DNA of 22,280 bases from an uncultured Granulosicoccaceae bacterium (GTDB lineage Bacteria > Pseudomonadota > Gammaproteobacteria > CALCKW01), in NCBI GenBank assembly GCA_937941555.1, contig CALDHJ010000362.1, positions 1-22,280 of the forward strand, written 5' to 3'. The notes under the pieces are model-generated. The model saw nothing but the letters and a program-made list of their open reading frames with translations, had not been told where the DNA came from and did not search any database. The position numbers were made by a program, and so were the translations under genes. Numbering within the stretch: position 1 is the first letter of the stretch; each line of letters opens with the position of its first letter. Shown piece by piece: positions 2,228-17,271 of the stretch.

Positions 2228-3259
2228 ATGACTACAACCGACTGGACCGTCGAGGACGCACGCGCGCTGCGTGCTGAAGTGAACGCCCAGCGCACGCGCC
2301 ACGCTCGTTTGAAACGCCTGGCCAGGCCTGCTGTGCACGCCGGCTACCGGGTTGCGCGCCTGATCACACGAGGCGGCAGCGATCAACGTGTGATGCACAA
2401 AGCCGCCGCCCGCATGAACAGCAACCAGACGTCGGCTTTCGACGGCTACTCCCCCCGCCAGGGCGATGTCGTCGTGTCAGCTTATTTCAAGGCCGGCACC
2501 AACTGGGTGATGCATATCTGCCACCAGATCGCTCACCTCGGACAGGCCGAGTTCGAGCATATCCAGGACGTCATACCCTGGCCTGACGCCGCGCAACCCC
2601 GATTCTGGATCAACCTGAACGATCCACTGCCCTACCACTCCCCAACCGGATTGCGCGTGATCAAATCGCATCTCCCGGCCAATCTCGTACCGAACCGTTC
2701 CGCGGCGCGCTATGTCGCGGTCACACGCGACCCCAAAGACTGCGCGGCCTCAGGGTACCCGTTCTTCAATAGGTTGCTGTTCGGCCCGGCCAGTCCCCCG
2801 CCTGACCCGTGGCTCGCCTTCTGTTCGAGCGAACACGCTATCTGCGGCCCCTGGAGCCAACACGCTGCGAGTTGGTACGCGCGGCGTGACGAGCCCAATG
2901 TGTTGTTCCTGCACTACGAAGACATCAAGCGCGAGCCGGCGGACACGGTCGACACGCTCGCCGCGTTCCTCGGCGTGACACTGGACGCACCCGCGCGCGA
3001 ACAAGTCATTGCCCGCACCGACTTTGCCGCGATGAAAGCCGACAACCACAAGTTCTACCCCGTGAACCAGTCGGCCTGGTCCAGCCGCGGTGGCGCGATC
3101 ATCCGAGCCGGCCGGGTCGGGGACAGCGCGACACTCTTCAGTGCGGCGGCGCGCAGGCAATGCGACACGCGCATCGCCTCGCAACTCGCCAAGCTGGATA
3201 GCCAGTTTCCCTACCACGCCCGATACGGCCAACAGACTGACGCGGAGCCGTTGGCATGA
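2228..3259 (+). CDS. Sulfotransferase domain protein (PAPS-dependent)
   Basis: A 343-residue protein with the sulfotransferase fold. The 5'-phosphosulfate loop is YFKAGTNW (residues 86-93), with Lys88 at the catalytic lysine position of the usual YPKSGTTW. The likely catalytic base is His148 in IKSHLP. The 3'-phosphate-binding segment is RDPKDCAASGYPF (167-179). Near the C-terminus IIRAGRVGD (about 293-301) corresponds to the RKGxxGDW motif that closes over PAPS, but its Trp is replaced. Such enzymes move a sulfate group from PAPS to a hydroxyl or amine; the acceptor cannot be read from sequence. There is no signal peptide, so it is probably cytosolic. It is the first gene of a three-gene unit; its end overlaps the GMC oxidoreductase start by 4 bases (ATGA), which implies coupled translation. 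Confidence 0.85.
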   Translation: MTTTDWTVEDARALRAEVNAQRTRHARLKRLARPAVHAGYRVARLITRGGSDQRVMHKAAARMNSNQTSAFDGYSPRQGDVVVSAYFKAGTNWVMHICHQIAHLGQAEFEHIQDVIPWPDAAQPRFWINLNDPLPYHSPTGLRVIKSHLPANLVPNRSAARYVAVTRDPKDCAASGYPFFNRLLFGPASPPPDPWLAFCSSEHAICGPWSQHAASWYARRDEPNVLFLHYEDIKREPADTVDTLAAFLGVTLDAPAREQVIARTDFAAMKADNHKFYPVNQSAWSSRGGAIIRAGRVGDSATLFSAAARRQCDTRIASQLAKLDSQFPYHARYGQQTDAEPLA

Positions 3260-4860
3260 AGGAGCAGACCTACGACTACGTGATCGTCGGCGGCGGCGCA
3301 GCCGGCTGCGTGCTCGCGAGCCGCCTCGCGACCGACAGCGACGCGCGCGTGGCACTGGTCGAACGCGGCGACGCCGACACCAATCGCTGGATACACATCC
3401 CGGCCACATTTTTCAAAGCGCTGCAAAGCCGTGATACCGACACCGTCACATCCGAGCCCGACCCCTCACTCGACGACAAACCCTTCCCGGTGCCGCAAGG
3501 CCGCGTGCTCGGTGGCGGGTCGTCGGTCAACGGCATGATCTACATGCGCGGCCAGGCGGCCGACTACGACGACTGGGCTGATCGACACGGTTGCATCGGG
3601 TGGTCCTACGCCGACGTGCTGCCGGTCTTCAAGCGCCAGGAGCGCAACACCCGCCTCGCCGATGCCTACCACGGCACGGACGGGCCACTGGTGGTCGCGG
3701 ACCCGTCAGCCCCGCATCCGGTCGCCGCCCAGATCATCGCCGCCGCCCACTCGGCCGGCATAGCCGCCACCGACGACTTCAACGGCGCCTCACAGGCGGG
3801 TGCAGGCTGGTATCAGGTCACGGCGCACGCGGGCAAACGCCAGTCAGCTGCGACCTGTTTTCTCAGGCCGGCGTTGACACGCGAGAACCTGACCGTGCTA
3901 ACCCACCATCACGCTGCACACATCGAGTTCAGCCAACGCCGTGCCACTGCCCTGATCTGCCTCGATGCGCACGGTGAGACCCTGAAACTCAGGGCGGCGC
4001 GCGAGATCGTGCTGACGGCCGGCAGTTTTCACAGCCCCAAGCTCCTGATGCTGTCCGGCATTGGCCCGGCAGCCGAGCTTCGACGCCACGGCATCCGCGC
4101 GTTGCACGACACCGCCGGCGTCGGCGCCAACTACCAGGACCACGTCGGTGCCCCGGTCACGAGGCGGCTCAAGGACGCGCGCGGTCTGTTTGGTGCCGAC
4201 ACGGGCCTGGCCGCACTCCGACATGGACTCGACTACGCGCTGTTCAAACGCGGGCTGCTGACCAGCAACCTGCTGCAAGCCGGCGCCTGCGTCGACACCA
4301 CCGGCAGTGGCCGGCCGGACGTTCAATACAACTTCGCCCCGTTTGCACCCGACGCACCGGGTAAGCCACCCTTGCCCTTTCACGCCATTCAGGTACACCC
4401 GATGACGATGCGTCCGCGCTCGCGCGGGTATCTCGGGCTCGCCTCCACCGACCCACGCGACGCACCACGCTTTCACGCCTCGACGCTGTCGGATGACCAC
4501 GACCTCGACACCCTGCGCCGCGGGGTTCGCCTGGCGCGCGACATCTGCGAGCAACCAGGACTGCGTGAACTCCTGGGAGACGAAGTCTGGCCTGGCGCAG
4601 ACGTCAGCAGCACCACCGGATCAAACGCACTCGACGACGCGATTCGGGCCCAGGCCCGCACCATCTTTCACCCGGCCGGCACCTGCCGCATGGGCAGCGA
4701 CGGCGAGGCCGTCGTCGACACACAGTTGCGGGTACGCGGGGTCGAGGGGCTTCGCGTCGCCGACTGCTCGGTCATGCCCGCGCTGACCTCGGGCAACACC
4801 AACGCACCGACCCTGATGATCGCGGACCGCTGCGCTGACGCGATCTTGTCGGACGACTAA
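3256..4860 (+). CDS. GMC-family FAD-dependent alcohol oxidoreductase (choline dehydrogenase-like)
   Basis: A 534-residue glucose-methanol-choline oxidoreductase, about the normal family length. The dinucleotide fold YVIVGGGAAGC lies at residues 8-18. GMC signature 1 (GRVLGGGSSVNGMIYMRG) lies near residue 85 and signature 2 (TAGSFHSPKLLMLSGIGP) near residue 255. The catalytic His is His472 in FHPAGTCRMG, and Asn516 in SGNTNAPT sits 44 residues later, the same spacing as the His/Asn pair of choline oxidase. The enzyme should oxidise a primary or secondary alcohol to a carbonyl using FAD. It shares an ATGA overlap with the sulfotransferase, and the cupin gene follows after 11 bases, so the three probably act in one pathway. 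Without a betaine aldehyde dehydrogenase or BetI nearby, I would not call it betA. Confidence 0.9.
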   Translation: MKEQTYDYVIVGGGAAGCVLASRLATDSDARVALVERGDADTNRWIHIPATFFKALQSRDTDTVTSEPDPSLDDKPFPVPQGRVLGGGSSVNGMIYMRGQAADYDDWADRHGCIGWSYADVLPVFKRQERNTRLADAYHGTDGPLVVADPSAPHPVAAQIIAAAHSAGIAATDDFNGASQAGAGWYQVTAHAGKRQSAATCFLRPALTRENLTVLTHHHAAHIEFSQRRATALICLDAHGETLKLRAAREIVLTAGSFHSPKLLMLSGIGPAAELRRHGIRALHDTAGVGANYQDHVGAPVTRRLKDARGLFGADTGLAALRHGLDYALFKRGLLTSNLLQAGACVDTTGSGRPDVQYNFAPFAPDAPGKPPLPFHAIQVHPMTMRPRSRGYLGLASTDPRDAPRFHASTLSDDHDLDTLRRGVRLARDICEQPGLRELLGDEVWPGADVSSTTGSNALDDAIRAQARTIFHPAGTCRMGSDGEAVVDTQLRVRGVEGLRVADCSVMPALTSGNTNAPTLMIADRCADAILSDD

Positions 4861-4871
4861 GGAGACACACC

Positions 4872-5249
4872 ATGACCCCAAACTTCTTCAACCTGAACGA
4901 CACCACTGGCGGCATCGAACGCGAACTCGCGCCGGGGATCACGACACGCATCCACACCGGCGAGCACGCTATGGTGTCGGTCGTGCGCTTCGACGCCGGT
5001 ATCCGCGGCACGGTACACCACCACCCCGAGGAACAGTGGGGGCTCTGTGTCGAGGGCGGTGGTACGCGCTTTCAGGGTGATCTCGCCGTGGCGGTTGCAC
5101 CAGGGGATTTCTGGCGCACCCCGGGTGGCGTGCCCCACACCATGGAGGCCGGCGACGACGGGCTTGTCGTCATGGACGTGTTCGCGCCGCCGCGCAAAGC
5201 CTATACCGAACCCGGCAGCGGTTTTGCCGCCGAGTCCGACACCGACTAA
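4872..5249 (+). CDS. Small cupin-domain protein
   Basis: A 125-residue single-domain cupin. Motif 1 is GTVHHHPEEQWGLCVEGGG (about residues 44-62), giving His, His and Gln/Glu as metal ligands. Motif 2 is PGDFWRTPGGVPHTM (about 78-92) with the last His ligand. The tail VFAPPRKAY resembles KdgF-like cupins that linearise unsaturated sugar products, but sequence alone does not fix the reaction; isomerase, lyase and dioxygenase activities all occur in this fold. A good ribosome binding site, AAGGAGA at 4859-4865, overlaps the stop codon of the GMC gene and sets the start at 4872. The gene ends 5 bases before the convergent peroxidase stop, with no visible terminator between them. Confidence 0.85.
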   Translation: MTPNFFNLNDTTGGIERELAPGITTRIHTGEHAMVSVVRFDAGIRGTVHHHPEEQWGLCVEGGGTRFQGDLAVAVAPGDFWRTPGGVPHTMEAGDDGLVVMDVFAPPRKAYTEPGSGFAAESDTD

Positions 5250-5254
5250 CCGAT

Positions 5255-7255
5255 CTACTGCAACTCTGACACGAGGAACACATTCGGCTGGATGTCGCCA
5301 TCCAACAAGGCCGTGTTGTTGACGATCACGTCCGTCAGGGTCTGCTGATAACTCAAACCGGTTTCCGCCACCAAGGACGCGAGATCATCGTTCCAGAGGT
5401 AGAAACGCGGGTCGCCATCGCGCAGCGCCGCAAACTGGTGCGCCCACATCGCGTGTTGCAGCTCACCGAGATCCGAGCCGACAGGGCGCGGTTCGGACAC
5501 CATGCCCACAAAGGCATCGACCTGATCGACATCGCCATAGAGCGCCTGCAAGCGGGCCGCAAGTGTGCTGCGGCGCACCCCGACCACGGCCTCGCCATCT
5601 GCTGCGTCGGTGCCGGGGATCAGCACGTTGCCGTCAGCATCGCGGAGTTCGACAAAATCCATGATGGCCGGGTTGTTGATCGCGTCCCCCGCCGCAAGCA
5701 GCGGATCACCGCGGTCGAAATCAGCCGTTGCCTCGCCCGTGATCTCGGTGAAGCTGCCCACGGCTGGCAGGCCATAGGCCACGCGCAGGCTGTTGTAGTC
5801 GGGGATGCCGTGGTCGCGCTGGCGAAAGACGTCTAGCGCGCCAAGATCACTGACGAGGTTGAAACAGGTCGGCAATTCCACGCCGTCGAGGCAGGCGTCC
5901 GGGTTCGTGATGTCGGTACGCGGCAATTGGAACAACACGCTGCGCAACTGGTTGTCGATCTGCTCGTCGTTCAGATACTGCGCCTCGGCACCCAGACCCG
6001 CGGCGACCGGACCGACGCCGAGTAACGCGAGCAGACGCGGATTGGCGAAGGCGACGTTGAGTGGCACCGCCAGCTCCACTTCGTTGCCAAGCACCTCGAT
6101 CTCGATGCCCGTATCAGCAAAGGCGGCGAGCTCGGACTCGCTGAAGTGGCCGACGTCCACGGCCATTTCGATCTCGCCATGAATCATGCTGTGGGCGCGA
6201 AACCCCACGGTTGCAAATTCGTTGGTGACGCGCGCGTCGACATTGGGCTGATAGCCGTTGGCCGCCGGCAGCTGTACGCCAAGCGCCGGCAGGAACTCGT
6301 TGTAGGTGATGTACTGGGTGGTGGCAATCACGAGCTGGCGCGCCGCCTGAAACTTGCGCTGTTCCGACCAGTCAGCGGGCAGCAGCGAGACGAGACGATT
6401 GTGCTCACGCGCAAAGAGCGTGTGGGCTGCGGTCAAACCGATATTCTCGTTGGCTCGCACATCGCCGGTGACAACTGTTTCCGCGCCAGCAACATCCGCC
6501 CGCAGCCGGCCAACGATTTCCATCTCCGGCGCACTCGTGGCATCGCCGCGCGCGTTGGCAGTGGGCAGCGTGTTGTCACTGCTCATGAGCAAGCGTGCCC
6601 CGTTATTGCGCCGATCGCCGTCGACGGGCCCCTCGCGCAACCACTCCTGGCGTTCACGGCTGCCGTAGACGGCCCAGCCATCGAGCAGCGGCGTCACGGT
6701 GTTGATCTGTTCGCGCGGCGTGGTGACCCCGGTGCCGGGAGCCGCGGCACTGCGGGTCATGCTCAGCGCGTTGGCGCTATTGGAGAAGTGCTCCAGCGGA
6801 TCAAATTCATCGAAAGGCTGCTGCACCACTTCGTCCCCGCCCTGGCGCAGTCCGATGTTGTGGTCGACAAACTGGCCCCAGGTCCAGGCCCATTGCGTGA
6901 CTCCGTTCTCCGAGAACAGGTTCTGCGCCCCGTCGGCGAAGACGCGGTTACTCAGATAGCGCAAGTCAGGCCCGCTCATCATGGCGCCGATGCCGTCTGC
7001 ATACTGTGCAGGTGCAACCCTGCCGTAGGGCAGGCCTGCGGGAATACGGCTGTCGTTGTCGCGCTCACGGTCGCGTCGGCGTTGCCGGGGCGCGGTCGAA
7101 CCGTCCTGCTGCACGGCGACGTCACCGAAACCGAGTTGCTCGAGCAGGCTTTGCGCCCGTATCTCGTGCGGTGTGCTGATCAAGCCAAGAGCCGTCGCGA
7201 CTGCCAATGCAGTACCGGCGAGGCGGTGGGGTCTTTTTTGTGGCTGTTGCGCCAT
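5255..7255 (-). CDS. Exported animal-type haem peroxidase
   Basis: The start at 7255 gives 666 residues opening with a Lys/Arg-containing N-terminus and a hydrophobic stretch (about 12-28) ending near IRAQS, read as a signal peptide. A TTG start 84 bases further up would bury this signal. Peroxidase-cyclooxygenase hallmarks are present: distal His132 in WGQFVDHN, catalytic Arg267 in GDVRANEN, LTAAHTLFAREHNRL just after it, and proximal His355 in FRAHSM. QRDHGIPDYNSLR near the C-terminus is also typical. Asp131 and Glu270 match the two residues that bind haem covalently by ester bonds in myeloperoxidase; its third link, Met, is Asn271 here. Family members use peroxide to oxidise halides or phenols, mostly outside the cytoplasm. 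The substrate is unknown. Confidence 0.9.
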   Translation of the reverse strand: MAQQPQKRPHRLAGTALAVATALGLISTPHEIRAQSLLEQLGFGDVAVQQDGSTAPRQRRRDRERDNDSRIPAGLPYGRVAPAQYADGIGAMMSGPDLRYLSNRVFADGAQNLFSENGVTQWAWTWGQFVDHNIGLRQGGDEVVQQPFDEFDPLEHFSNSANALSMTRSAAAPGTGVTTPREQINTVTPLLDGWAVYGSRERQEWLREGPVDGDRRNNGARLLMSSDNTLPTANARGDATSAPEMEIVGRLRADVAGAETVVTGDVRANENIGLTAAHTLFAREHNRLVSLLPADWSEQRKFQAARQLVIATTQYITYNEFLPALGVQLPAANGYQPNVDARVTNEFATVGFRAHSMIHGEIEMAVDVGHFSESELAAFADTGIEIEVLGNEVELAVPLNVAFANPRLLALLGVGPVAAGLGAEAQYLNDEQIDNQLRSVLFQLPRTDITNPDACLDGVELPTCFNLVSDLGALDVFRQRDHGIPDYNSLRVAYGLPAVGSFTEITGEATADFDRGDPLLAAGDAINNPAIMDFVELRDADGNVLIPGTDAADGEAVVGVRRSTLAARLQALYGDVDQVDAFVGMVSEPRPVGSDLGELQHAMWAHQFAALRDGDPRFYLWNDDLASLVAETGLSYQQTLTDVIVNNTALLDGDIQPNVFLVSELQ

Positions 7256-7273
7256 GGGCGTTCTCGTTGTGGG

Positions 7274-7302
7274 GTTATGCCCTTCAACGCACGTCCAGCC
7301 AA
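7274..7302 (-). promoter_or_regulatory. Candidate promoter for the haem peroxidase gene
   Basis: Read on the minus strand, TTGGCT (complement of 7297-7302) and CATAAC (complement of 7274-7279) are separated by 17 bases. Each matches the sigma-70 consensus at 4 of 6 positions. The expected transcript start would leave only about a dozen leader bases before the ATG at 7255. It is a visual call only. Confidence 0.3.
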
Positions 7303-7342
7303 AGGGTTGACACCCGCCCCCGCTCAAGCGCGCGGCCACTCA

Positions 7343-7355
7343 GTCGCTATGCGAC
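7343..7355. repeat. Short inverted repeat in the peroxidase/TMEM43 divergent spacer
   Basis: GTCGC (7343-7347) and GCGAC (7351-7355) form perfect arms around TAT. It lies 25 bases before the TMEM43-TerB start and about 90 bases upstream of the peroxidase start. It could be an operator, but a 5-base arm in GC-rich DNA can occur by chance. Confidence 0.25.
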
Positions 7356-7379
7356 CAATAAGCCCCTCCGGATGCCACC

Positions 7380-8867
7380 ATGTTCAGTCTCCCGTTCAGC
7401 CGCAGCCGACGAGAACGCAGCCGAGGCAGCATCCTGTTCGGCGCCCTGCTGATCTGGGTCGGTATGACAGCGCTGTGGAAAAACGAGGTGCGATTTGACC
7501 TCGTTGGCGCAGCCAAAGACGCGTTCCCGGTCTACAACGCACACAACGTTTATCCCGGCGACAATTTCAGTTTCTCGGGGCGTCTCGATCCCGGGCTGAC
7601 CATTCCCGGTCAATACGTGGCGCCAATGCGCGGTTACATGGCGGTCGAACGCGTTGCCGAAATCTACGCCTGGGACCGCGAGTCGCGCTCGGACGGGCCG
7701 GATCGCTGGACCCTGCGCTGGCAATCACGTCCCGAATCCAACAGCCGCAACGGCCACCTGCAGCAGCGGTTGCAGAGCGCGCAACTGCTGCCGCCAGACT
7801 ACGCACTGAACGACCTGCGAATCGACCCGCAATCCATTCGCTTTGTCGACCCCTACCGGGTCATCAACCCGGGACAACTGCAGTGGCGCGACAGTCGGCT
7901 GCGCCCGGCATCGCACTCCCGCGAGTACTTTCATTTTCCGGCATCCGGCACAACCGCGGGTGGTCCTCAGCTCGGTGACGAACGCCTGTCCTATCGTGCG
8001 ATTCCGGTGCCACCGGTCGCCACCTACTTCGGCCGATTCGACGGCAAACAGGGTGTCGTCGACGACAGCCAACGACGCGACGGGCTGATCAACGACATCA
8101 TTCAGAACGAGGGCATCCTGCACCACCTGGTGTCAGGCGAGCGCGACACCGCACTCGAGAGCATCGCCGCCGATCAGGCGAGGCTCACCCTGATAGTGCG
8201 CCTCGTTGGCACCGTTGCCACTGTGCTCGGCGTGCACCTGCTGTTGGCCAAGGTGTTCGGACTGTTGCTCATGCTGCCGTTCATCGGTGCGCTGGTCGAA
8301 CGCGCGTTGTTCCTCGTGTCCTGCGTGATCGGCGCAGCACTCGCGGGCCTGACCATCGCCACTGGCTACGCGGTGGCACATCCACTTGCGCCGATCGGGT
8401 TGTGCGCGGCCATTGCCGCGGCGATCTACACGCTACGCCAGCGGGCACGCGGCCAATCAAACGCGGCGCGCGAGCAGGTTCAGATTCAATACCGCAGCCA
8501 GCTCACACACAACAGCCTCGCCGAGATCGAATTCATCGAGCTCGCCCGGCTGGCCGCGCTCGACAGCGAGATCGGCGACGGCGAGCGTGCGATGCTCATG
8601 CGCTGGGGACACGAGCGGGGCTGGAGCGCAGAGCGCTGCGAATCCCTGATCGCCAAAGCAGCGGAATCAGACGGCGGTTTCCTGCCGCGCGACAGCACGC
8701 CGGTGATGATCGCTAACCTGGTGCGCATCGCGCTCGCCGACGGCACCCTGAGTTCGCGCGAGCTGGACCGCATCAAAGCCATTGCGCAACGCGCCGACGT
8801 CGACGATCAATTGGTCAACGCCCTGATCCGGCAAACGCAACGCTCCATGACAACCGCGGCACCCTGA
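7380..8867 (+). CDS. TMEM43-like membrane protein with C-terminal TerB-like domain
   Basis: A 495-residue protein. An N-terminal membrane helix (about residues 17-34) is followed by a large soluble part (about 35-255). That part has TMEM43/LUMA-family features, including a MAVERVAEIYAWDRES stretch near residue 80 and GDERLSYRAIPVPPVATYFG near residue 200. A cluster of hydrophobic helices (about 262-346) includes a long run with AKVFGLLLMLPFIGALVER. After a charged linker, a helical acidic domain (about 380-488) carries the TerB pattern, with ALDSEIGDGERAML and IALADGTLSSRELDRI as paired acidic motifs. TMEM43 proteins organise membranes in eukaryotes, and TerB-like domains bind divalent metal and sit at membranes in stress systems. 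The combined function is unknown. The gene diverges from the peroxidase and converges on rlmJ with a 5-base gap. Confidence 0.75.
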   Translation: MFSLPFSRSRRERSRGSILFGALLIWVGMTALWKNEVRFDLVGAAKDAFPVYNAHNVYPGDNFSFSGRLDPGLTIPGQYVAPMRGYMAVERVAEIYAWDRESRSDGPDRWTLRWQSRPESNSRNGHLQQRLQSAQLLPPDYALNDLRIDPQSIRFVDPYRVINPGQLQWRDSRLRPASHSREYFHFPASGTTAGGPQLGDERLSYRAIPVPPVATYFGRFDGKQGVVDDSQRRDGLINDIIQNEGILHHLVSGERDTALESIAADQARLTLIVRLVGTVATVLGVHLLLAKVFGLLLMLPFIGALVERALFLVSCVIGAALAGLTIATGYAVAHPLAPIGLCAAIAAAIYTLRQRARGQSNAAREQVQIQYRSQLTHNSLAEIEFIELARLAALDSEIGDGERAMLMRWGHERGWSAERCESLIAKAAESDGGFLPRDSTPVMIANLVRIALADGTLSSRELDRIKAIAQRADVDDQLVNALIRQTQRSMTTAAP

Positions 8868-9868: not shown

Positions 9869-10699
9869 ATGCACCTGGACCGCCTCACCGCCATTCTGGA
9901 AATCGTCGCCGTCGCCGGACGGCCGGTGACGGTCGCCGAGGTGCAGAGAGTGGCCGGGCTGCCCAAACCCACCTGCTACCGATTGATCCAGCAGCTGTGT
10001 GATCAACACCTGATCGAACAGCCCACCGAAGACGGGCGCTACGTGATCGGCGAGCGCCTGATTCGCATCGCCTTGCTCGGCAAGTCCGATGTCGACGTGC
10101 GGCGCTGCGCCGCGCCAGTGTTGCGCCAGGCCGCCACCGCCTTTAACGAAACCGTGTGCCTCGCGCGGTTTCGCAACAGCAAGGTCGAGATCATCCACGT
10201 CGAGACACCGGACGACCCGACCCGCGCCTACATCCATCCCGGCCTCGGCGAGCGCCCGCTGCACGCCTGCTCCTGCTCCAAGGCGATTGCCGCGCACACC
10301 GAGCCCGCGTTTCAGGACAGCATCCTGCGCGGCAGCCTCAAGGCCTACACCGAACACACCAAAACGTCTGCCGCCGCGCTCAAACGCGAATTCAAGCAGA
10401 TTCGCGCGCAAGGCTACGCCGACTGCGATCAGGAGATCGACATCGGTATTGCAAGCGTGGCCGCCCCGGTGTCGATCGGGTCGATCGGCGCGACTTTCAG
10501 CGTGACAACGGTCGGCCCCATTCGCCGCTTTGACACCGCTACGCGCCAACAGACAGGGCAACAACTCATCCGCGTCGCTGACAAGATCAGCGGTGCAATT
10601 CAACTGTGCAATGTGGCCGAGGTGTCGCACCACACCCCGCCCGAACCCCAAGCCCGCGCACGCCACGCCGGCAAACACCCCCAGGGAGACAGACCATGA
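9869..10699 (+). CDS. IclR-family transcriptional regulator
   Basis: A 276-residue regulator, slightly longer than usual because of a ~25-residue polar, Pro/His-rich tail. The N-terminal winged helix-turn-helix (about residues 5-60) contains VTVAEVQRVAGLPKPTCYRLI. The GAF-like effector domain (about 75-250) shows NETVCLARF, GERPLHACSCSKAIAA and the late ASVAAPVSIG motif, where small ligands bind in this family. The segment usually rich in small residues before GKA carries two cysteines here (Cys134 and Cys136), which could react with a thiol or electrophile; that is inference. Its stop overlaps the SBP56 start (ATGA at 10696), so regulator and enzyme are co-translated and the enzyme is its most likely target. 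Confidence 0.88.
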   Translation: MHLDRLTAILEIVAVAGRPVTVAEVQRVAGLPKPTCYRLIQQLCDQHLIEQPTEDGRYVIGERLIRIALLGKSDVDVRRCAAPVLRQAATAFNETVCLARFRNSKVEIIHVETPDDPTRAYIHPGLGERPLHACSCSKAIAAHTEPAFQDSILRGSLKAYTEHTKTSAAALKREFKQIRAQGYADCDQEIDIGIASVAAPVSIGSIGATFSVTTVGPIRRFDTATRQQTGQQLIRVADKISGAIQLCNVAEVSHHTPPEPQARARHAGKHPQGDRP

Positions 10700-12096
10700 C
10701 CATGCGACCGGACCCGACCTTCCACGCCTCACCCAAGCTCGCGATGCAGGCGCCCGCCGAAAAATTCGGCTTCACCATCATGCTCAGCCCCGACGGCAAG
10801 AAGTCGGACGGCATCGCCGTCGTCGACCTCGACCCCGAGTCGTCGAAGTACGGCAAGATTGTCCACAAGGTGATCGTGCCCACCAAGGGCGATGAGTTTC
10901 ATCACTTCGGCTGGAATGCCTGCTCGTCGGCGCTGTCGCCGATGTCGGGTCACGCTTTTCTCGAGCGCCGTTATCTGATCGTGCCGGGCATTCGCTCATC
11001 GCGCATCTACATCATCGACGTCAAAGAACCGCTCAAGGCCAAGATTCACCATATCGTCGAGCCCGAGGAGATCTTCGCGAAGACCGGCTACTCGCGCCCA
11101 CACACCATCCACTGTGGCCCCGAGGGCATCTATGTCTCGACCCTCGGCGGCGGCGGCGAAGACGGCACCGACGGCCCGCCCGGCATTTTCATCATGGACT
11201 GCGAGACCTTCGAGGTCATCGGGCGCTATGAAATGGACCGCGGCAAACAGGACAAGCACTACGACTTCTGGTGGAACCTGCCGCAGGACTACATGGTGAG
11301 TTCCGAGTGGGGGTTGCCACCACAGTTTGAAAACGGCGTGGTCCCCGACGACCTGCTCTCGAACAAATACGGCCACTCGATCCACTTCTGGGACTTGCGT
11401 GCGCGCAAGAACATCCAGACCATCGATTTCGGAGAGAACTACCAGATGGCGCTCGAAGTGCGCCCGGCACACGACCCGACCAAGTCCTACGGATTTTGCG
11501 GTGTCGTGGTCGACACCACCAATTTGCAAGGCGCGATCTTCACCTGGTGGCGCGACGCAAAAGGCAAGTGGAAAGCCAAGAAGACCATCACCATCGACCC
11601 GGTCCCGGCCGACGCCGACGACCTGCCGCCGCTGTTGAAGGGCTTTGGCGCAGTGCCACCGCTCGTCACCGATATCGACCTGAGCCTCGACGACAAATAC
11701 CTCTACGTCGCCTGTTGGGGTCTTGGCGAGATGCACCAGTACGATGTGTCCGACCCCATGAAGCCCAAACTCGCGGGCAAAGTGGAGCTCGGCGGCATCG
11801 TCGCCAAACACAAACACGCCAACGGCAAAGACTTCGCCTACGGCCCGCAGATGGTCGAGATCAGCCGCGACGGCAAGCGCGTCTATTGGACCAACTCGCT
11901 CTACTCGACCTGGGACGACCAATTCTACCCCGACGACGAGGGCGGACAGATGGTCATGGCGCGCGTTGGCGACGAAGGCGGCTTCGAACTCGACAAGGAC
12001 TTCTACATCAACTTCCCGAAAGGTTACCGCAGCCACCAGATCCGGCTCGAAGGCGGCGACTGTTCAACCGACAGCTTCTGCTACCCATCGGTCTAG
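10696..12096 (+). CDS. Selenium-binding protein (SBP56) / methanethiol oxidase family
   Basis: A 466-residue protein close in length to human SELENBP1 (472). The conserved EFHHFGWNACSS is at residues 67-78; Cys76 matches human Cys57, the reported selenium site. RPHTIHCGPEGIYVSTLG, KYGHSIHFWDL and WGLGEMHQYDV follow, and GGDCSTDSFC lies near the C-terminus. Family enzymes use copper to oxidise methanethiol to formaldehyde, hydrogen sulfide and hydrogen peroxide. Unlike the periplasmic bacterial methanethiol oxidase described from Hyphomicrobium, no signal peptide is visible, so this form looks cytosolic. The start at 10696 is set by CAGGGAGACAGACC before the ATG and by the ATGA overlap with iclR; a longer frame from 10606 lies within iclR and is unlikely. 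The membrane-protein gene begins 3 bases after its stop. Confidence 0.9.
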   Translation: MTMRPDPTFHASPKLAMQAPAEKFGFTIMLSPDGKKSDGIAVVDLDPESSKYGKIVHKVIVPTKGDEFHHFGWNACSSALSPMSGHAFLERRYLIVPGIRSSRIYIIDVKEPLKAKIHHIVEPEEIFAKTGYSRPHTIHCGPEGIYVSTLGGGGEDGTDGPPGIFIMDCETFEVIGRYEMDRGKQDKHYDFWWNLPQDYMVSSEWGLPPQFENGVVPDDLLSNKYGHSIHFWDLRARKNIQTIDFGENYQMALEVRPAHDPTKSYGFCGVVVDTTNLQGAIFTWWRDAKGKWKAKKTITIDPVPADADDLPPLLKGFGAVPPLVTDIDLSLDDKYLYVACWGLGEMHQYDVSDPMKPKLAGKVELGGIVAKHKHANGKDFAYGPQMVEISRDGKRVYWTNSLYSTWDDQFYPDDEGGQMVMARVGDEGGFELDKDFYINFPKGYRSHQIRLEGGDCSTDSFCYPSV

Positions 12097-12099
12097 CGA

Positions 12100-12771
12100 T
12101 TGGAACCGACCTCTCTGACGGCCCTCTGGTGGGCCGTCATCATCTCGGGCCTGTACCACGGCATCAACCCGGGCATGGGCTGGCCGCTGAGTGTCACAGC
12201 TGCGTTAATGGAGAAAAAGGCCAGCGCCCTGCCCCGGGCGCTGGGCCTGCTCGCGCTCGGCCATCTACTCGCCATGCTCGCGATCCTGCTGCCCTTCTCC
12301 GCCCTGGCGGTTCTCGTCACCTGGGAGCGCGAGATCCGCATCGGGGCCGGGCTGCTCGTGATCGCGATGGGGGTCTATCTCTGCATCAACCGCCGCCACC
12401 CGCGCTTTCTCGCGCGCGTGCACCCGGCGCGGCTCGCGCTCTGGTCCTTTCTCGCCGCCATGGCCCACGGCGCGGGGCTGATGCTCGTGCCGATCTACCT
12501 CGGCCTCTGCGCTATAGACGAACTCGAGGGCGGCCACCTCGCAGCACAACTGCTGATGAACGGCAGCCTCAGCATCGCGCTGACCGTCGCTGTCGCTCAC
12601 ACCCTGGCCATGACCCTCGCCGGCGGCATCATCGCCATCGGCGTCTACAAATGGCTCGGCCTGACATTCGTGTCAAAGACCTGGTTCAACCTCGACCTCG
12701 TGTGGGCACTCAGCCTGATCGCGGTGGGCGTGTTCGGCGTGTATTCCGCGTGGTTCTCATCGCACCCGTGA
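12100..12771 (+). CDS. Polytopic membrane protein with intramembrane histidines, SBP56-linked
   Basis: A 223-residue, strongly hydrophobic protein with about six helices and short loops, starting at a TTG 3 bases after the SBP56 stop. Four helices carry histidines in small-residue settings: YHGINPGMGW (His20), LGHLLAM (His55), AHGAGLM (His123) and AHTLAMT (His167). The first and third look like related halves, suggesting an internal repeat. Such histidines recall HupE/UreJ and NiCoT/RcnA-type metal permeases, but the exact HX4DH signature of nickel transporters is missing, so no family is assigned. Position makes it the third gene of the iclR-SBP56 transcript. Metal (perhaps copper) supply to SBP56, or export of a product such as sulfide, are hypotheses. 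No ATG start is available. Confidence 0.7.
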   Translation: MEPTSLTALWWAVIISGLYHGINPGMGWPLSVTAALMEKKASALPRALGLLALGHLLAMLAILLPFSALAVLVTWEREIRIGAGLLVIAMGVYLCINRRHPRFLARVHPARLALWSFLAAMAHGAGLMLVPIYLGLCAIDELEGGHLAAQLLMNGSLSIALTVAVAHTLAMTLAGGIIAIGVYKWLGLTFVSKTWFNLDLVWALSLIAVGVFGVYSAWFSSHP

Positions 12772-12912
12772 GACTGCAATGCCTAACCCTGGCAGGAAAA
12801 AGTGTCGCTGGCGTCTGGCTTCTATTCGTATCGACTCTGAGCGATTCTTATTCGGTCAGCGATGTCAGTCTCTAACGAGCCGCCCGACTACAGTTGATCG
12901 CCAACGCCATAT
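12772..12912. other. Convergent intergenic spacer, no feature seen
   Basis: This 141-base stretch separates the converging membrane-protein and PII-like genes. It is less GC-rich than its neighbours. I found no T-tailed hairpin, no gene and no repeat in it. Plus-strand frames through it are shadows extending from antisense of the PII-like gene. Confidence 0.4.
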
Positions 12913-13224
12913 TCAAAACCGCTCAGCCCGCACCACATCGCAATCGGTGATGCTGACCACGCCTATATGCCGCTCGACCACATCGAACACGGCGTCGAGC
13001 ATGGCGTCGAGTCGTTCGGTGCGCAGGATGCAGACGATGGCGACCATGCCGCCTGCGCTCGAGACCTGCCCCTCACGGGTCCAGCGGCCGCTTTGGCCGC
13101 TGCCGCCGAGCACGGGCAGGACGGTGTAGCCGGTGACGCCGGAGCGGTCGAGTACGTTGGTCAGGCGGCTTTCCATCGGTGCCTCGATGATGATTTCAAC
13201 GCGTTTGGCGCGGGTGGTGTGCAT
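12913..13224 (-). CDS. PII-like signalling protein paired with SbtA (SbtB/CPII type)
   Basis: A 103-residue ferredoxin-fold protein of the PII superfamily. The pattern RVEIIIEAPMESRLTNVL, then GVTGYTVLPVLGGSGQSGRW, matches the first strand-helix and T-loop base of PII-like proteins found with bicarbonate transporters. The T-loop is shorter than in GlnB/GlnK, and the uridylylated tyrosine context is lacking. The C-terminal CGPxGC redox motif of cyanobacterial SbtB is absent. SbtB binds cAMP, AMP or ADP and gates SbtA; the same role is inferred here. A strong AGGAGG at 13233-13238 (minus strand), inside the end of sbtA and 8 bases before the ATG, sets the start. The gene follows sbtA after 4 bases. 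Confidence 0.8.
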   Translation of the reverse strand: MHTTRAKRVEIIIEAPMESRLTNVLDRSGVTGYTVLPVLGGSGQSGRWTREGQVSSAGGMVAIVCILRTERLDAMLDAVFDVVERHIGVVSITDCDVVRAERF

Positions 13225-13228
13225 GCGG

Positions 13229-14221
13229 TCAGCCTCCTACGGCCCGTGCGACGCTCAGGTACAGCGGGATGCCGACCGTGAGGTTGAACGGAAAGGTGAT
13301 GCCCAGCGACATCGTGAGGTAAATCGACGGGTTGGCCTCAGGCAGGGCCACGCGCATCGCGGCCGGCACCGCAATGTACGAAGCTGACGCGCTGAGGGTC
13401 ATGAGCAGCAGGGTGCCGCCGACCGAGAGCCCGACGAGCGACGCGCCCAACAGCCCTGCGCCCGCCCCAACCACCGGCATCAGCAGACCGAATCCGATCA
13501 GCCCCGGTCGCAGGTGTTTGGCGCTGCTGCGCAGGCCACGGCCCGCCACCAGGCCCATGTCGAGCAGGAAGAGGCACAACACGCCTTTGAACGGGGACAC
13601 GACAAAACTTTCGATTTCGACCAGGCCGTCTTCGCCTGTGATGTAGCCGATGAGGAATGACCCGATCAGCAACACGATCGAGCCGTTGAGCAGGATCTCG
13701 CGCAGCAGGCCCTGGCGATCGCGCGCGTCCACTGGGTTACCAGTGTCGGCAGAGAAACGCGCGGCGATCCACAGCGCCGAGAGTATCGCCGGCGCCTCCA
13801 TGATGGCCGCCACCGCAACCAGGTAGCCTTCGCTCGCGATGCCGGCCGACTCCAGCACCGAGGTCGCCGCGACAAAGGTCACGATCGAGATTGACCCGTA
13901 GTGGCCTGCGACAGCGGCCGCATCGACGACACTGAGCCCTGTCGTGACCCGCAGCATGGCGAAGGCGACAAACGGCAGACTGAACGACAACACCGTGCCG
14001 GCGAGCATGCTCGCGACCAGATCGCCGTCAACGCCGTGACCGCTGACGCTGACGCCCCCTTTGAACCCGATGGCGAAAAGCAGGTACAGCGAGAGGGTTT
14101 TGGCCGCCGCTTCGGGGATCGTGAGATCGGACCTTGCGAGCGCCGCCAACACACCAAGCGCAAAAAAGAGAATCAGGGGCGACAGCAGGTTGTCTGCTGC
14201 GAGCGTCAACACGGTATCCAC
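13229..14221 (-). CDS. sbtA: SbtA-type sodium-dependent bicarbonate transporter
   Basis: A 330-residue membrane protein with about ten hydrophobic segments in two halves, as in SbtA. Diagnostic stretches are LLSPLILFFALGVLAALARSD with TIPEAAAKTLSLYLLFAIGFKGG, then VAGHYGSISIVTF with AIMEAPAI, and in the second half LDMGLVAGRGL, LSASASYIAVPAAMR and ITFPFNLTVGIPLY. SbtA imports bicarbonate with sodium across the inner membrane. I prefer the GTG at 14221, preceded by GAGAGAA on the minus strand, because it places the first helix where family proteins have it; a TTG at 14296 would add 25 unlike residues. The PII-like gene follows immediately, and a beta-carbonic anhydrase diverges upstream. Confidence 0.88.
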   Translation of the reverse strand: MDTVLTLAADNLLSPLILFFALGVLAALARSDLTIPEAAAKTLSLYLLFAIGFKGGVSVSGHGVDGDLVASMLAGTVLSFSLPFVAFAMLRVTTGLSVVDAAAVAGHYGSISIVTFVAATSVLESAGIASEGYLVAVAAIMEAPAILSALWIAARFSADTGNPVDARDRQGLLREILLNGSIVLLIGSFLIGYITGEDGLVEIESFVVSPFKGVLCLFLLDMGLVAGRGLRSSAKHLRPGLIGFGLLMPVVGAGAGLLGASLVGLSVGGTLLLMTLSASASYIAVPAAMRVALPEANPSIYLTMSLGITFPFNLTVGIPLYLSVARAVGG

Positions 14222-14329
14222 TGCAGGGGCATTCTCTCGGCGGAAGTCAGGCGGCCAGCTCCACACGCCGCCGCCCGTCAGCTTAACGCACGGCAACCCT
14301 CATAACGGCCTCCAGTGGGCGCGGCCGTG

Positions 14330-14358
14330 TCGACGCTACCCGGCTCAGACGCTACCAT
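14330..14358 (+). promoter_or_regulatory. Candidate promoter of the carbonic anhydrase gene
   Basis: TCGACG (14330-14335) and TACCAT (14353-14358) are separated by 17 bases; each matches the sigma-70 consensus at 4 of 6 positions. The implied start leaves about 25 leader bases before the ATG at 14390. The 168-base spacer 14222-14389 must also hold the sbtA promoter in the other direction, which I could not place. Confidence 0.3.
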
Positions 14359-14389
14359 TTGTCGGACTTTCCACTGCGACTGCACGGTC

Positions 14390-14995
14390 ATGAGCGATCT
14401 CGACGACCTCTTTTCCAAGAACCGCGCGTGGGCCAACGGCGTGCGCACGGTGGACCCCGACTACTTTCTGCGGCTGTCGAAACAGCAGGCGCCGAAGTAC
14501 CTCTGGATCGGCTGTTCGGACAGCCGCGTGCCGGCGAACCAGATCATCGACCTGCCGCCGGGCGAGGTGTTCGTCCACCGCAACATCGCGAACGTGGTCG
14601 TGCACACGGACCTCAACTGCCTGTCAGTGATCCATTACGCCGTCGCGGTGTTGCAGGTCGATCACATCATTGTCTGTGGCCACTACGGCTGCGGCGGGGT
14701 CATGGCGGCACTCGATGACCGCTTCGACCGCGGCCTGATCGACAACTGGCTGCGCCATATCCAGGACGTCTACCGCCAACACCGCGACGAGGTCGACGCA
14801 CTCGACACAGATCAGGACAAGGTCAATAGGCTGTGCGAACTCAATGTCATGGCGCAGGTGGCAAATGTACGCAAAGCGCCAACCGTGCGCCGCGCCTGGG
14901 CGACCGGGCAGTCATTGAGTGTCCACGGCGTGATCTACGGCCTCGAGGACGGGCTGCTCAAGAACCTCGACGTGAGTGTCTCCGGCGAGGCCTAA
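14390..14995 (+). CDS. can: Beta-class carbonic anhydrase
   Basis: A 201-residue beta-carbonic anhydrase. The zinc ligands and catalytic dyad fall at exactly the E. coli Can positions: Cys42, Asp44 and Arg46 in GCSDSR, then His98 and Cys101 in CGHYGCGG. RNIANVVVHTDLNCLSVIHYAV and NWLRHIQDVY are further family marks. The enzyme interconverts carbon dioxide and bicarbonate in the cytosol. The ATG at 14390 gives the family N-terminus; the upstream in-frame extension does not resemble it. Divergence from sbtA across 168 bases suggests a joint inorganic-carbon function. It ends 9 bases before the convergent tesB stop; a 5-base hairpin there has no T-tract. Confidence 0.93.
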   Translation: MSDLDDLFSKNRAWANGVRTVDPDYFLRLSKQQAPKYLWIGCSDSRVPANQIIDLPPGEVFVHRNIANVVVHTDLNCLSVIHYAVAVLQVDHIIVCGHYGCGGVMAALDDRFDRGLIDNWLRHIQDVYRQHRDEVDALDTDQDKVNRLCELNVMAQVANVRKAPTVRRAWATGQSLSVHGVIYGLEDGLLKNLDVSVSGEA

Positions 14996-15939: not shown

Positions 15940-16446
15940 TCAGCGGTAGCTGAGCTGATACTGGCCCAGCGTGTCGCCGTCGAAATCGAGCGTGCCGTCG
16001 ACGATCGCGCCGTCGAGCACGCGTTCGAGCCAGAGCCGGTCGTCGGCCCACATGCGCGCGAAGGGGATCCGATCCCGCGCACACCAGAAGGGGTCGGCTT
16101 CGTCGGTTGCGTGCGGCTCGCCGCTGAAGTCGGTCGAGACAAACACGAATACCCGCAGACGGTAGCCATCGGCGAAGCGAAAACGCAGCTCGCCGCGCGC
16201 GTCGAGCGCGTGCACGGCTACACCAGTCTCCTCGGCCACTTCGCGCACCGCGCAGGCTGCAGCGGTCTCGCCCGGGTCAAGCTTGCCACCCGGTCCGTTG
16301 ACCTTGCCTGCGCCGAGACCGCGCTTTTTCTCAATCAGGAGTATCCGGTTGTCACACAGGCAAAACACGAGGGTGGCAAGGTGGTCGGCAGGCCAGTGTT
16401 GGCCAGACGAGACACCGTTTTCTGCCAAGTTGTCAGTCGATGCCAT
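15940..16446 (-). CDS. Nudix hydrolase (MutT/8-oxo-dGTPase-like)
   Basis: A 168-residue protein from the ATG at 16446. A full Nudix box is present, GKLDPGE followed after seven residues by REVAEETGV (about residues 57-80), so the metal-binding glutamates are intact. KVNGPGGKL before it, and the C-terminal DDRLWLERVLDG, resemble 8-oxo-dGTP/purine nucleoside triphosphate pyrophosphatases of the human MTH1 type. It would hydrolyse oxidised or other nucleoside diphosphate derivatives in the cytosol; the substrate is not certain. A GTG 45 bases upstream is in frame but adds residues of no family likeness. No strong ribosome binding site marks either start. Confidence 0.87.
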   Translation of the reverse strand: MASTDNLAENGVSSGQHWPADHLATLVFCLCDNRILLIEKKRGLGAGKVNGPGGKLDPGETAAACAVREVAEETGVAVHALDARGELRFRFADGYRLRVFVFVSTDFSGEPHATDEADPFWCARDRIPFARMWADDRLWLERVLDGAIVDGTLDFDGDTLGQYQLSYR

Positions 16447-16546
16447 ACAAATTGCCCAGAATCCTTCGGTTTGTTGTGAGGCTGCCGACACAGTCGCCAG
16501 ACGTGTATGCCAGCTTCGGATTCAAAATCCCACACGGGTGCGCAGT

Positions 16547-16623
16547 TGAACCGTATAATTGCGTAGCTTGATGCCCTGCAACACCTCTTTTTTGACGAAA
16601 ACAGCCACATAATAAAAATAACA
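16547..16623 (+). promoter_or_regulatory. AT-rich promoter region between the Nudix gene and the subtilisin-fold gene
   Basis: This is the most AT-rich stretch of the window. It contains a perfect -10 hexamer, TATAAT at 16554-16559, with no good -35 at normal distance, and an A/T run (16606-16623) directly before the ATG at 16624. On the minus strand TTGCAG (complement of 16575-16580) with TATACG 18 bases downstream could serve the Nudix gene. No clear ribosome binding site precedes the plus-strand ATG. Confidence 0.35.
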
Positions 16624-17271
16624 ATGGCCCACACTCCCCCTCTCGCCCGCCGGCTCCGGCTCGGCATCATCGGCGACGGTGCCGGTGCAATTGACGCCGA
16701 TCAGCTCGGCGCCGCCAGCGCCTTTCGCGCCGTGGATGGCGATGTCACACGCCAGCTTCCGGCCTTTGGGGCCGGCGCTGCGAGCGCCGTGGCGCTTGCA
16801 CAGCTGCTCGGCACGCACGACCACCTGTTGTTGTTCGATGCGCAAATTCCAGGCGCCGACGCGCAACGGCCCGAGGTGCTGGCCGAAGCACTCTCCTGGT
16901 TGCTCAACCAGGGCGTTGACCTGGTGGCATTCTGCCACGGCTGTGACACACCGGATCACGCCCTGAACGCAGCGCTCGACCGCAGCCACCGCTTCGGTGT
17001 GACCTTGATTGCCGGTGTGACTGCGCCCTGGCCATCGACCCACCCGGCAGTGATCGGAGTGGCGGCCCAGGTGGACGCTGACGCAGGCTTGCAATGGCTC
17101 GGCGGCGACGCCTGCAGCGTGCTGCACGGCGGCACCGGCGACCCCGCCGTCGCCGTGGGCGATGTGGCAAACGTGCTGCTCTCGGGCATTGCCACCGGGT
17201 TGGTGCGGCACGACCTGCTCACCCACTTGCAGCAGCATTGCGGTAGCACAGCACAACGCCGCGCCGGCTGA
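16624..17271 (+). CDS. Subtilisin-fold protein lacking the catalytic triad (putative pseudoprotease)
   Basis: A 215-residue protein with no signal peptide. Read against subtilisin it follows the S8 fold in order. RLGIIGDGAG (11-20) replaces the VAVIDTGV strand, with Gly at the catalytic Asp position. PAFGAGAASAVALAQLLG replaces the SHGTHVAG helix, with Phe at the catalytic His. HLLLFDAQIPG then EALSWLLNQGVDLVAFCHG matches the core strand-helix-strand. ALNAALDRSHRFGVTLIAGVT ends with Thr at the oxyanion Asn, and HPAVIGVAA matches the PSVIAVGA strand. GGTGDPAVAVGDVANVLL replaces GTSMASPHVAG, with Gly at the catalytic Ser. All functional residues are thus changed while the scaffold is kept, suggesting a binding or regulatory role. 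It is also much shorter than most subtilases. Its stop abuts the cobC stop on the opposite strand. Confidence 0.65.
   Translation: MAHTPPLARRLRLGIIGDGAGAIDADQLGAASAFRAVDGDVTRQLPAFGAGAASAVALAQLLGTHDHLLLFDAQIPGADAQRPEVLAEALSWLLNQGVDLVAFCHGCDTPDHALNAALDRSHRFGVTLIAGVTAPWPSTHPAVIGVAAQVDADAGLQWLGGDACSVLHGGTGDPAVAVGDVANVLLSGIATGLVRHDLLTHLQQHCGSTAQRRAG

Follow-up and report, generated by a model that had tools for sequence, protein, structure and literature searches.

A putative pseudosubtilase related to the leader peptidase QhpE in one genus of Granulosicoccaceae

The window analysed here is the whole 22,280-nucleotide stretch of contig C362 from a draft genome (G000; 3.43 Mb in 600 contigs, 79% complete) of an uncultured bacterium belonging to Granulosicoccaceae, a gammaproteobacterial family. 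One of its genes encodes a 215-amino-acid subtilisin-like protein from which the catalytic Asp-His-Ser triad is missing and whose closest described relative is QhpE. We propose, with a probability of roughly 0.6, that this protein is a non-proteolytic relative of QhpE, which probably has its own promoter and is kept by selection in a genus that yielded no qhp partner gene; it would be a soluble protein with a binding or regulatory role. The line would have shed the catalytic Asp, His and Ser together with most other QhpE signatures, while retaining residues of the subtilase core and fixing new ones of its own. Computation supports the kinship with QhpE, the fold, the missing triad, purifying selection and a conserved gene slot; the role is inferred. 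The partner may be a protein, a peptide or a small ligand, bound through either the former cleft or a newly formed surface, by analogy with the pseudosubtilases CspC and CspA. Statements on QhpE and on CspC/CspA follow two papers (PMC7876137 and PMC6636752, respectively). QhpE is a short cytosolic subtilase, which cleaves the leader of QhpC in a single-turnover, suicidal manner (PMC7876137). CspC and CspA are bacterial pseudosubtilases with a proposed signalling function in spore germination of Clostridioides difficile (PMC6636752). Because QhpE is single-turnover and suicidal, a shift towards binding is readily conceivable, and the soluble binding or regulatory role is suggested by this chemistry together with the signalling pseudosubtilases (PMC7876137, PMC6636752). 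The first-pass annotation knew of no described function for a protein of this form; QhpE and CspC/CspA are, however, described relatives (PMC7876137, PMC6636752).

Catalytic positions and predicted fold

The gene and the codons at the catalytic places are as follows. QhpE rows are those of alignment A4, which contains 129 rows (109 QhpE, 8 clade 1 and 12 clade 2); the window protein belongs to clade 1.

16624..17271, plus strand: 215-amino-acid pseudosubtilase, closest to QhpE
16672..16674, plus strand: Gly17 codon, place of the catalytic Asp (Asp in 106/109 QhpE rows, 3 gaps)
16771..16773, plus strand: Ala50 codon, place of the catalytic His (His in 109/109 QhpE rows)
17020..17022, plus strand: Thr133 codon, place of the oxyanion Asn (Pro in 109/109 QhpE rows)
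17131..17136, plus strand: Gly170-Thr171 codons, place of the nucleophile Ser (Ser in 109/109 QhpE rows)

The place of Ser falls on Thr171 in A4 and on Gly170 in another alignment, and the window protein has Gly17, Ala50 and one of these two residues where the triad would stand. In clade 1, column 17 is Gly in 7/7 filled rows, column 50 is Ala, Val, Gly or Pro, and column 171 is Thr in six of eight rows and otherwise Pro or Tyr. In clade 2, column 17 is Ser in 12/12 rows, His is absent from column 50, and column 171, which lies in a gappy stretch, has mixed letters with Ser in 2/12. The first-pass annotation had all four functional places replaced. Across the homologues the loss of Asp, His and Ser held, the replaced positions being non-catalytic in all those examined. 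In contrast, the loss of Asn is not the family's own, because Pro occupies that place throughout QhpE, and the Phe that had been assigned to the His place lies two residues away from Ala50. Judged from the aligned residues, the protein lacks the triad of an active S8 peptidase and has the features of a functional pseudoprotease: a protease fold, lost catalytic residues and a gene under selection.

The predicted structure aligns with the core of subtilases over residues 2-213. Thus, the subtilisin fold claimed from the sequence is borne out at the level of the model, which has the subtilisin-like alpha/beta core of S8 subtilases. In the Foldseek search, the structure of PagA (4h6w), a cyanobactin maturation subtilase of the prenylagaramide pathway, was found at rank 46 (E 1.5e-6), under ordinary subtilisins. 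PagA resembles the window protein in its subtilase fold; by the title of its entry, we take it to be proteolytically active within a peptide pathway. The sole Pfam match to the window protein, DUF3572, was under cut-off and was rejected.

Relatives of the protein and kinship with QhpE

The first protein search scored 5383 candidates, and the next two scored at least 7999 and at least 7996. Among 5.8 billion clustered proteins, seven matched, two of which were near-copies of the window's own protein; a profile search gave at least nine proteins, and these matches constitute clade 1. P0001 and P0007 were excluded from A4, being nearly the window's own sequence. P0007 (119 amino acids) is the window protein minus an internal stretch, and either an artefact of assembly or a deletion variant within the population may account for it. 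Clade-1 orthologues are present in two of the three remaining genomes of the genus (57 and 65% identity). The last genome, G002, has a 211-amino-acid protein with 25% identity beside the same Nudix and thioesterase genes. This G002 protein, aligned to one QhpE, was the query for clade 2, and the same profile gathered the 109 QhpE rows; the clade-2 and QhpE counts rest on 120 of the 135 matches listed. Clade 2 comprises 12 proteins among the matches listed (P0011, P0013-P0022 and P0028), and P0011 is identical to the G002 protein (100%, full length). The same search also gave many short S8 proteins, one of which is labelled QhpE by its source. Three further matches were set aside: L004 (ABC ATPase-like) and L051 (flavoprotein-like), both weak and with the open reading frame inspected by eye, and L052 in genome G307, which lies inside an S8 domain already recorded as L023. 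Within the data searched, the pseudoenzyme family is real and conserved and occurs only in a small lineage. By titles and abstract openings, the literature searched describes no QhpE-derived pseudoenzyme, and a family model could group about 20 proteins that have no functional name.

The starting lead to QhpE was a subtilase of 217 amino acids (30% match) in the Luminiphilus genome of locus L006. It follows a radical SAM protein and an ABC transporter and precedes a flavoprotein-like gene (the last assigned by eye); it matches the QhpE model NF049966 with 209 bits, and the radical SAM protein matches TIGR03906 (QhpD) with 705 bits. The Luminiphilus locus at 3247-8259 is a qhp-type cluster of QhpD, ABC transporter, QhpE and a flavoprotein-like stretch spread over two overlapping reading frames. 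NF049966 matches the window protein with 36 bits (E 4.3e-9), which does not reach the cut-off of 165 bits, and matches 5/5 further clade-1 proteins scanned with 29.8-40.2 bits, far under the same cut-off. It is nevertheless the best match for all six clade-1 proteins and the commonest match for clade 2, in which 5/12 proteins match at E up to 1 (best 6.3e-4). At E 1e-40, NF049966 matches 109 of the 129 members of A4, and the window protein is not among them. We also compared two hidden Markov models (HMMs), one built from the 109 QhpE rows and one, for generic S8 peptidases, from 25 of the 29 loci L020-L048. The QhpE HMM outscored the generic HMM for 7/8 clade-1 and 12/12 clade-2 proteins, the clade-2 scores being low (2-18 bits). 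With hhalign, clade 1 gave 97.8% against QhpE, 96.8% against clade 2 and 96.2% (73 columns) against generic S8, and clade 2 gave 19.0% against generic S8. In a tree of 77 rows (7/8 clade 1, 8/12 clade 2, 37/109 QhpE and 25 generic), the two clades form one group (98), which joins between the QhpE and generic rows, closer to QhpE. The short form without a propeptide, which had been noted in the first-pass annotation, also agrees: the window protein has 215 amino acids, the NF049966 model has 219 positions, and the median of the 109 QhpE rows is 224, in a search restricted to lengths close to that of the query. By these comparisons, the window protein shares descent with the short cytosolic subtilases of the QhpE line.

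Several results weigh against our proposal, as do two on selection and one on function given below. NF049966 did not match the G002 protein or 7/12 clade-2 members, and Pfam S8 matched neither the window protein nor any of the 12 clade-2 proteins. hhalign gave 84.7% for clade 2 against QhpE. P0009, a clade-1 fragment, preferred the generic HMM (22.9 versus 20.5 bits). The branching point in the tree is unsure, because long branches come together at that place, as a warning of the tree program states. AlphaFold2 with six clade-1 rows gave a predicted local distance difference test score (pLDDT) of 44; therefore, the good structure model leans on the QhpE rows. Foldseek with the pLDDT-44 model found subtilisins with probabilities of up to 0.96 over about 50 columns, and in the same list there was no subtilisin at E < 0.001 and unrelated folds were interspersed. 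In a PDB sequence search subtilisin DY came second (E 0.072); the top match, a tRNA pseudouridine synthase (E 0.052), was rejected as an unrelated enzyme. The preference of P0009, the long branches and the unequal depth of the two HMMs (109 versus 25 rows) would fit an origin in another S8 group, with the QhpE link as an artefact of profile depth. We consider this origin distinctly unlikely, because NF049966, an independent NCBIfam model of nearly the same length, behaves as described above in both clades, Pfam S8 misses the window protein and the oxyanion Asn is absent from QhpE and the pseudosubtilase family alike.

Changed residues, qhp partners and possible functions

Forty positions are conserved in at least 96/109 QhpE rows. 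The clade-1 majority retains 16 of these (among others G14, G19, W92, A130, P137, G169, A175 and L202) and the clade-2 majority nine. N102 and S104 are invariant in 109/109 QhpE rows and changed in 20/20 pseudosubtilase rows; by comparison with subtilisin, we take their strand to be the substrate-binding strand. G106 of this NxSxG strand varies, half of the clade-1 rows retaining it. The GDARC motif (148-152) is lost in clade 1, and clade 2 retains its Asp in 11/12 rows. Other residues have become fixed:

17113..17115, plus strand: Cys164 codon (invariant in 20/20 rows of both clades, 0/109 QhpE rows)

Throughout the filled rows of the two clades, L7, R9, Cys164 and A177 do not vary, and each is found in no more than 1/109 QhpE rows, many of which are gapped at positions 7 and 9. 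Because QhpE signatures are lost and the family's own residues are newly fixed, a changed function is suggested rather than a simple loss.

The qhp partners were sought in the four genomes of the genus, the other three of which are 96% (G001), 93% (G002) and 99% (G003) complete. QhpD (TIGR03906) over cut-off and QhpC (PF08992) were each found in 0/4 of these genomes and in 6/6 QhpE-bearing genomes. The QhpC search was repeated on the QhpE-bearing genomes because the first one (56 relatives) had been silent in its 14 controls too. Sub-cut-off QhpD matches of 20 bits in G000 and 19 bits in G003 (cut-off 453) also occurred in 12/14 control genomes, and we take them to be other radical SAM proteins.

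It had been suggested in the first-pass annotation that the protein recognizes a leader peptide. In a present form of this idea, the protein would retain recognition of the leader of a ribosomally made peptide or subunit without cutting it and would serve as a chaperone or delivery protein. The kinship with QhpE, whose substrate QhpC bears a leader (PMC7876137), its single-turnover chemistry and the similar length all fit. The absence of QhpC and of QhpD over cut-off from the four genomes does not, nor do the changes at N102 and S104 or the variation at G106, and we think such a role unlikely. Because residues of the substrate strand are changed, a new ligand is likelier than the old leader. 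Since the active relative QhpE has been described biochemically (PMC7876137), whether the leader-binding cleft has been kept or rebuilt can be tested. A new chemistry is also conceivable, through residues fixed after the split, for example Cys104, His140, Cys164 and His168, which are invariant in clade 1. However, only Cys164 is common to clade 2, and by alignment it precedes the old Ser loop, outside any catalytic place; we regard this enzyme as quite improbable. The binding role that we prefer is itself an inference and counts among the points against us.

Compared with QhpE, the window protein has the same short single-domain core with no room for a propeptide and, like it, no oxyanion Asn. 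It differs in the triad, in N and S of NxSxG, in the GDARC motif, in scoring 36 bits against the cut-off of 165, and in having other gene neighbours and no qhp partner in the four genomes. By description, CspC and CspA are likewise bacterial pseudoproteases that are soluble, have the subtilase fold and carry replacements of two triad residues; in CspC, Gly and Thr are the residues at two of the three triad places (PMC6636752). The window protein is a bare core, in contrast to CspC with its prodomain and jelly-roll insert, and the Csp pseudosubtilases accompany an active relative, CspB (PMC6636752). A fuller history can be offered tentatively: possibly, a QhpE-type leader peptidase lost its pathway and its catalysis, and one gammaproteobacterial lineage then put it to use in binding or regulation, Cys164 and the conserved termini forming the centre of a new surface; its two clades (21-25% identity) split anciently and share one chromosomal slot in one genus. 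The family may thus be a case of a peptide-maturation protease that became a stand-alone pseudoenzyme after loss of its pathway.

Selection, promoter, gene slot and other features

The ratio of nonsynonymous to synonymous substitution rates (dN/dS) between congeners is 0.16, 0.26 and 0.48, and changes are mostly at the third codon position of the pseudosubtilase frame. Seven neighbouring genes gave 21 values from 0.09 to 0.36. Therefore, the gene is constrained, with one pair looser than the neighbours. The value of 0.48 (window versus G001) exceeds all 21 neighbour values and dS is close to saturation; these are the two points on selection mentioned above. The high value, the few relatives found and a longer reading frame on the opposite strand (16522-17256), which overlaps the gene, could speak for a decaying pseudogene or a chance frame. 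However, all dN/dS values are below 0.5 with mainly third-position changes, the frame is open in 4/4 genomes of the genus and TATAAT stands upstream in all four. Both a pseudogene, simple decay having already been discounted in the first-pass annotation, and a chance frame are scarcely credible.

Two features lie upstream of the gene:

16554..16559, plus strand: TATAAT, not repeated exactly on either strand of the window, 70 bases upstream of the ATG
15940..16491, minus strand: divergent Nudix hydrolase, adjoining the pseudosubtilase in 4/4 genomes of the genus

At least one TATAAT occurred in 27/100 shuffles of the window. In the three congeners it is also upstream, at -70, -73 and -114, and in G000, G001 and G003 it sits inside the string CCGTATAATNGC. 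In these three genomes the flanking genes on both sides are opposite in strand; in G002 the next downstream gene is on the same strand, 231 bases off. The gene is probably transcribed from its own candidate promoter. None of five Shine-Dalgarno-like strings tried was present in the last 24 bases before the ATG in the four genomes. An A-rich leader at 16600-16623, directly before the ATG, is alike in two congeners.

The first-pass annotation had asked whether gene neighbours recur, and they do: thioesterase, Nudix and pseudosubtilase genes stand side by side in 4/4 genomes. The order continues in G000, G001 and G003 with genes for histidine phosphatase, CobS, rhodanese, a Spy-like and an outer-membrane-like protein. 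For G002 the stretch covered is 19.9 kb; the four intervening genes were not found in it, and the outer-membrane-like gene is directly next. A search for the Nudix neighbour at E 1e-15 found it in 3/274 genomes, all of this genus (G001 was not among the genomes listed). Other, longer S8-like frames (489-894 amino acids) are present in the four genomes.

Rfam gave no match in the window. Elsewhere in it, 5255-7339 (minus strand) encodes a 694-amino-acid haem peroxidase of animal type in a bacterium (PF03098, 277.6 bits), and 7380-8867 (plus strand) encodes a 495-amino-acid protein that matches TMEM43 (43.6 bits) and, just under cut-off, TerB. At 10606-14995, an SBP56 selenium-binding protein, presumably of the methanethiol oxidase type, is followed by a bicarbonate transporter of Sbt type (PF05982) and then by carbonic anhydrase (PF00484), possibly an inorganic-carbon set.
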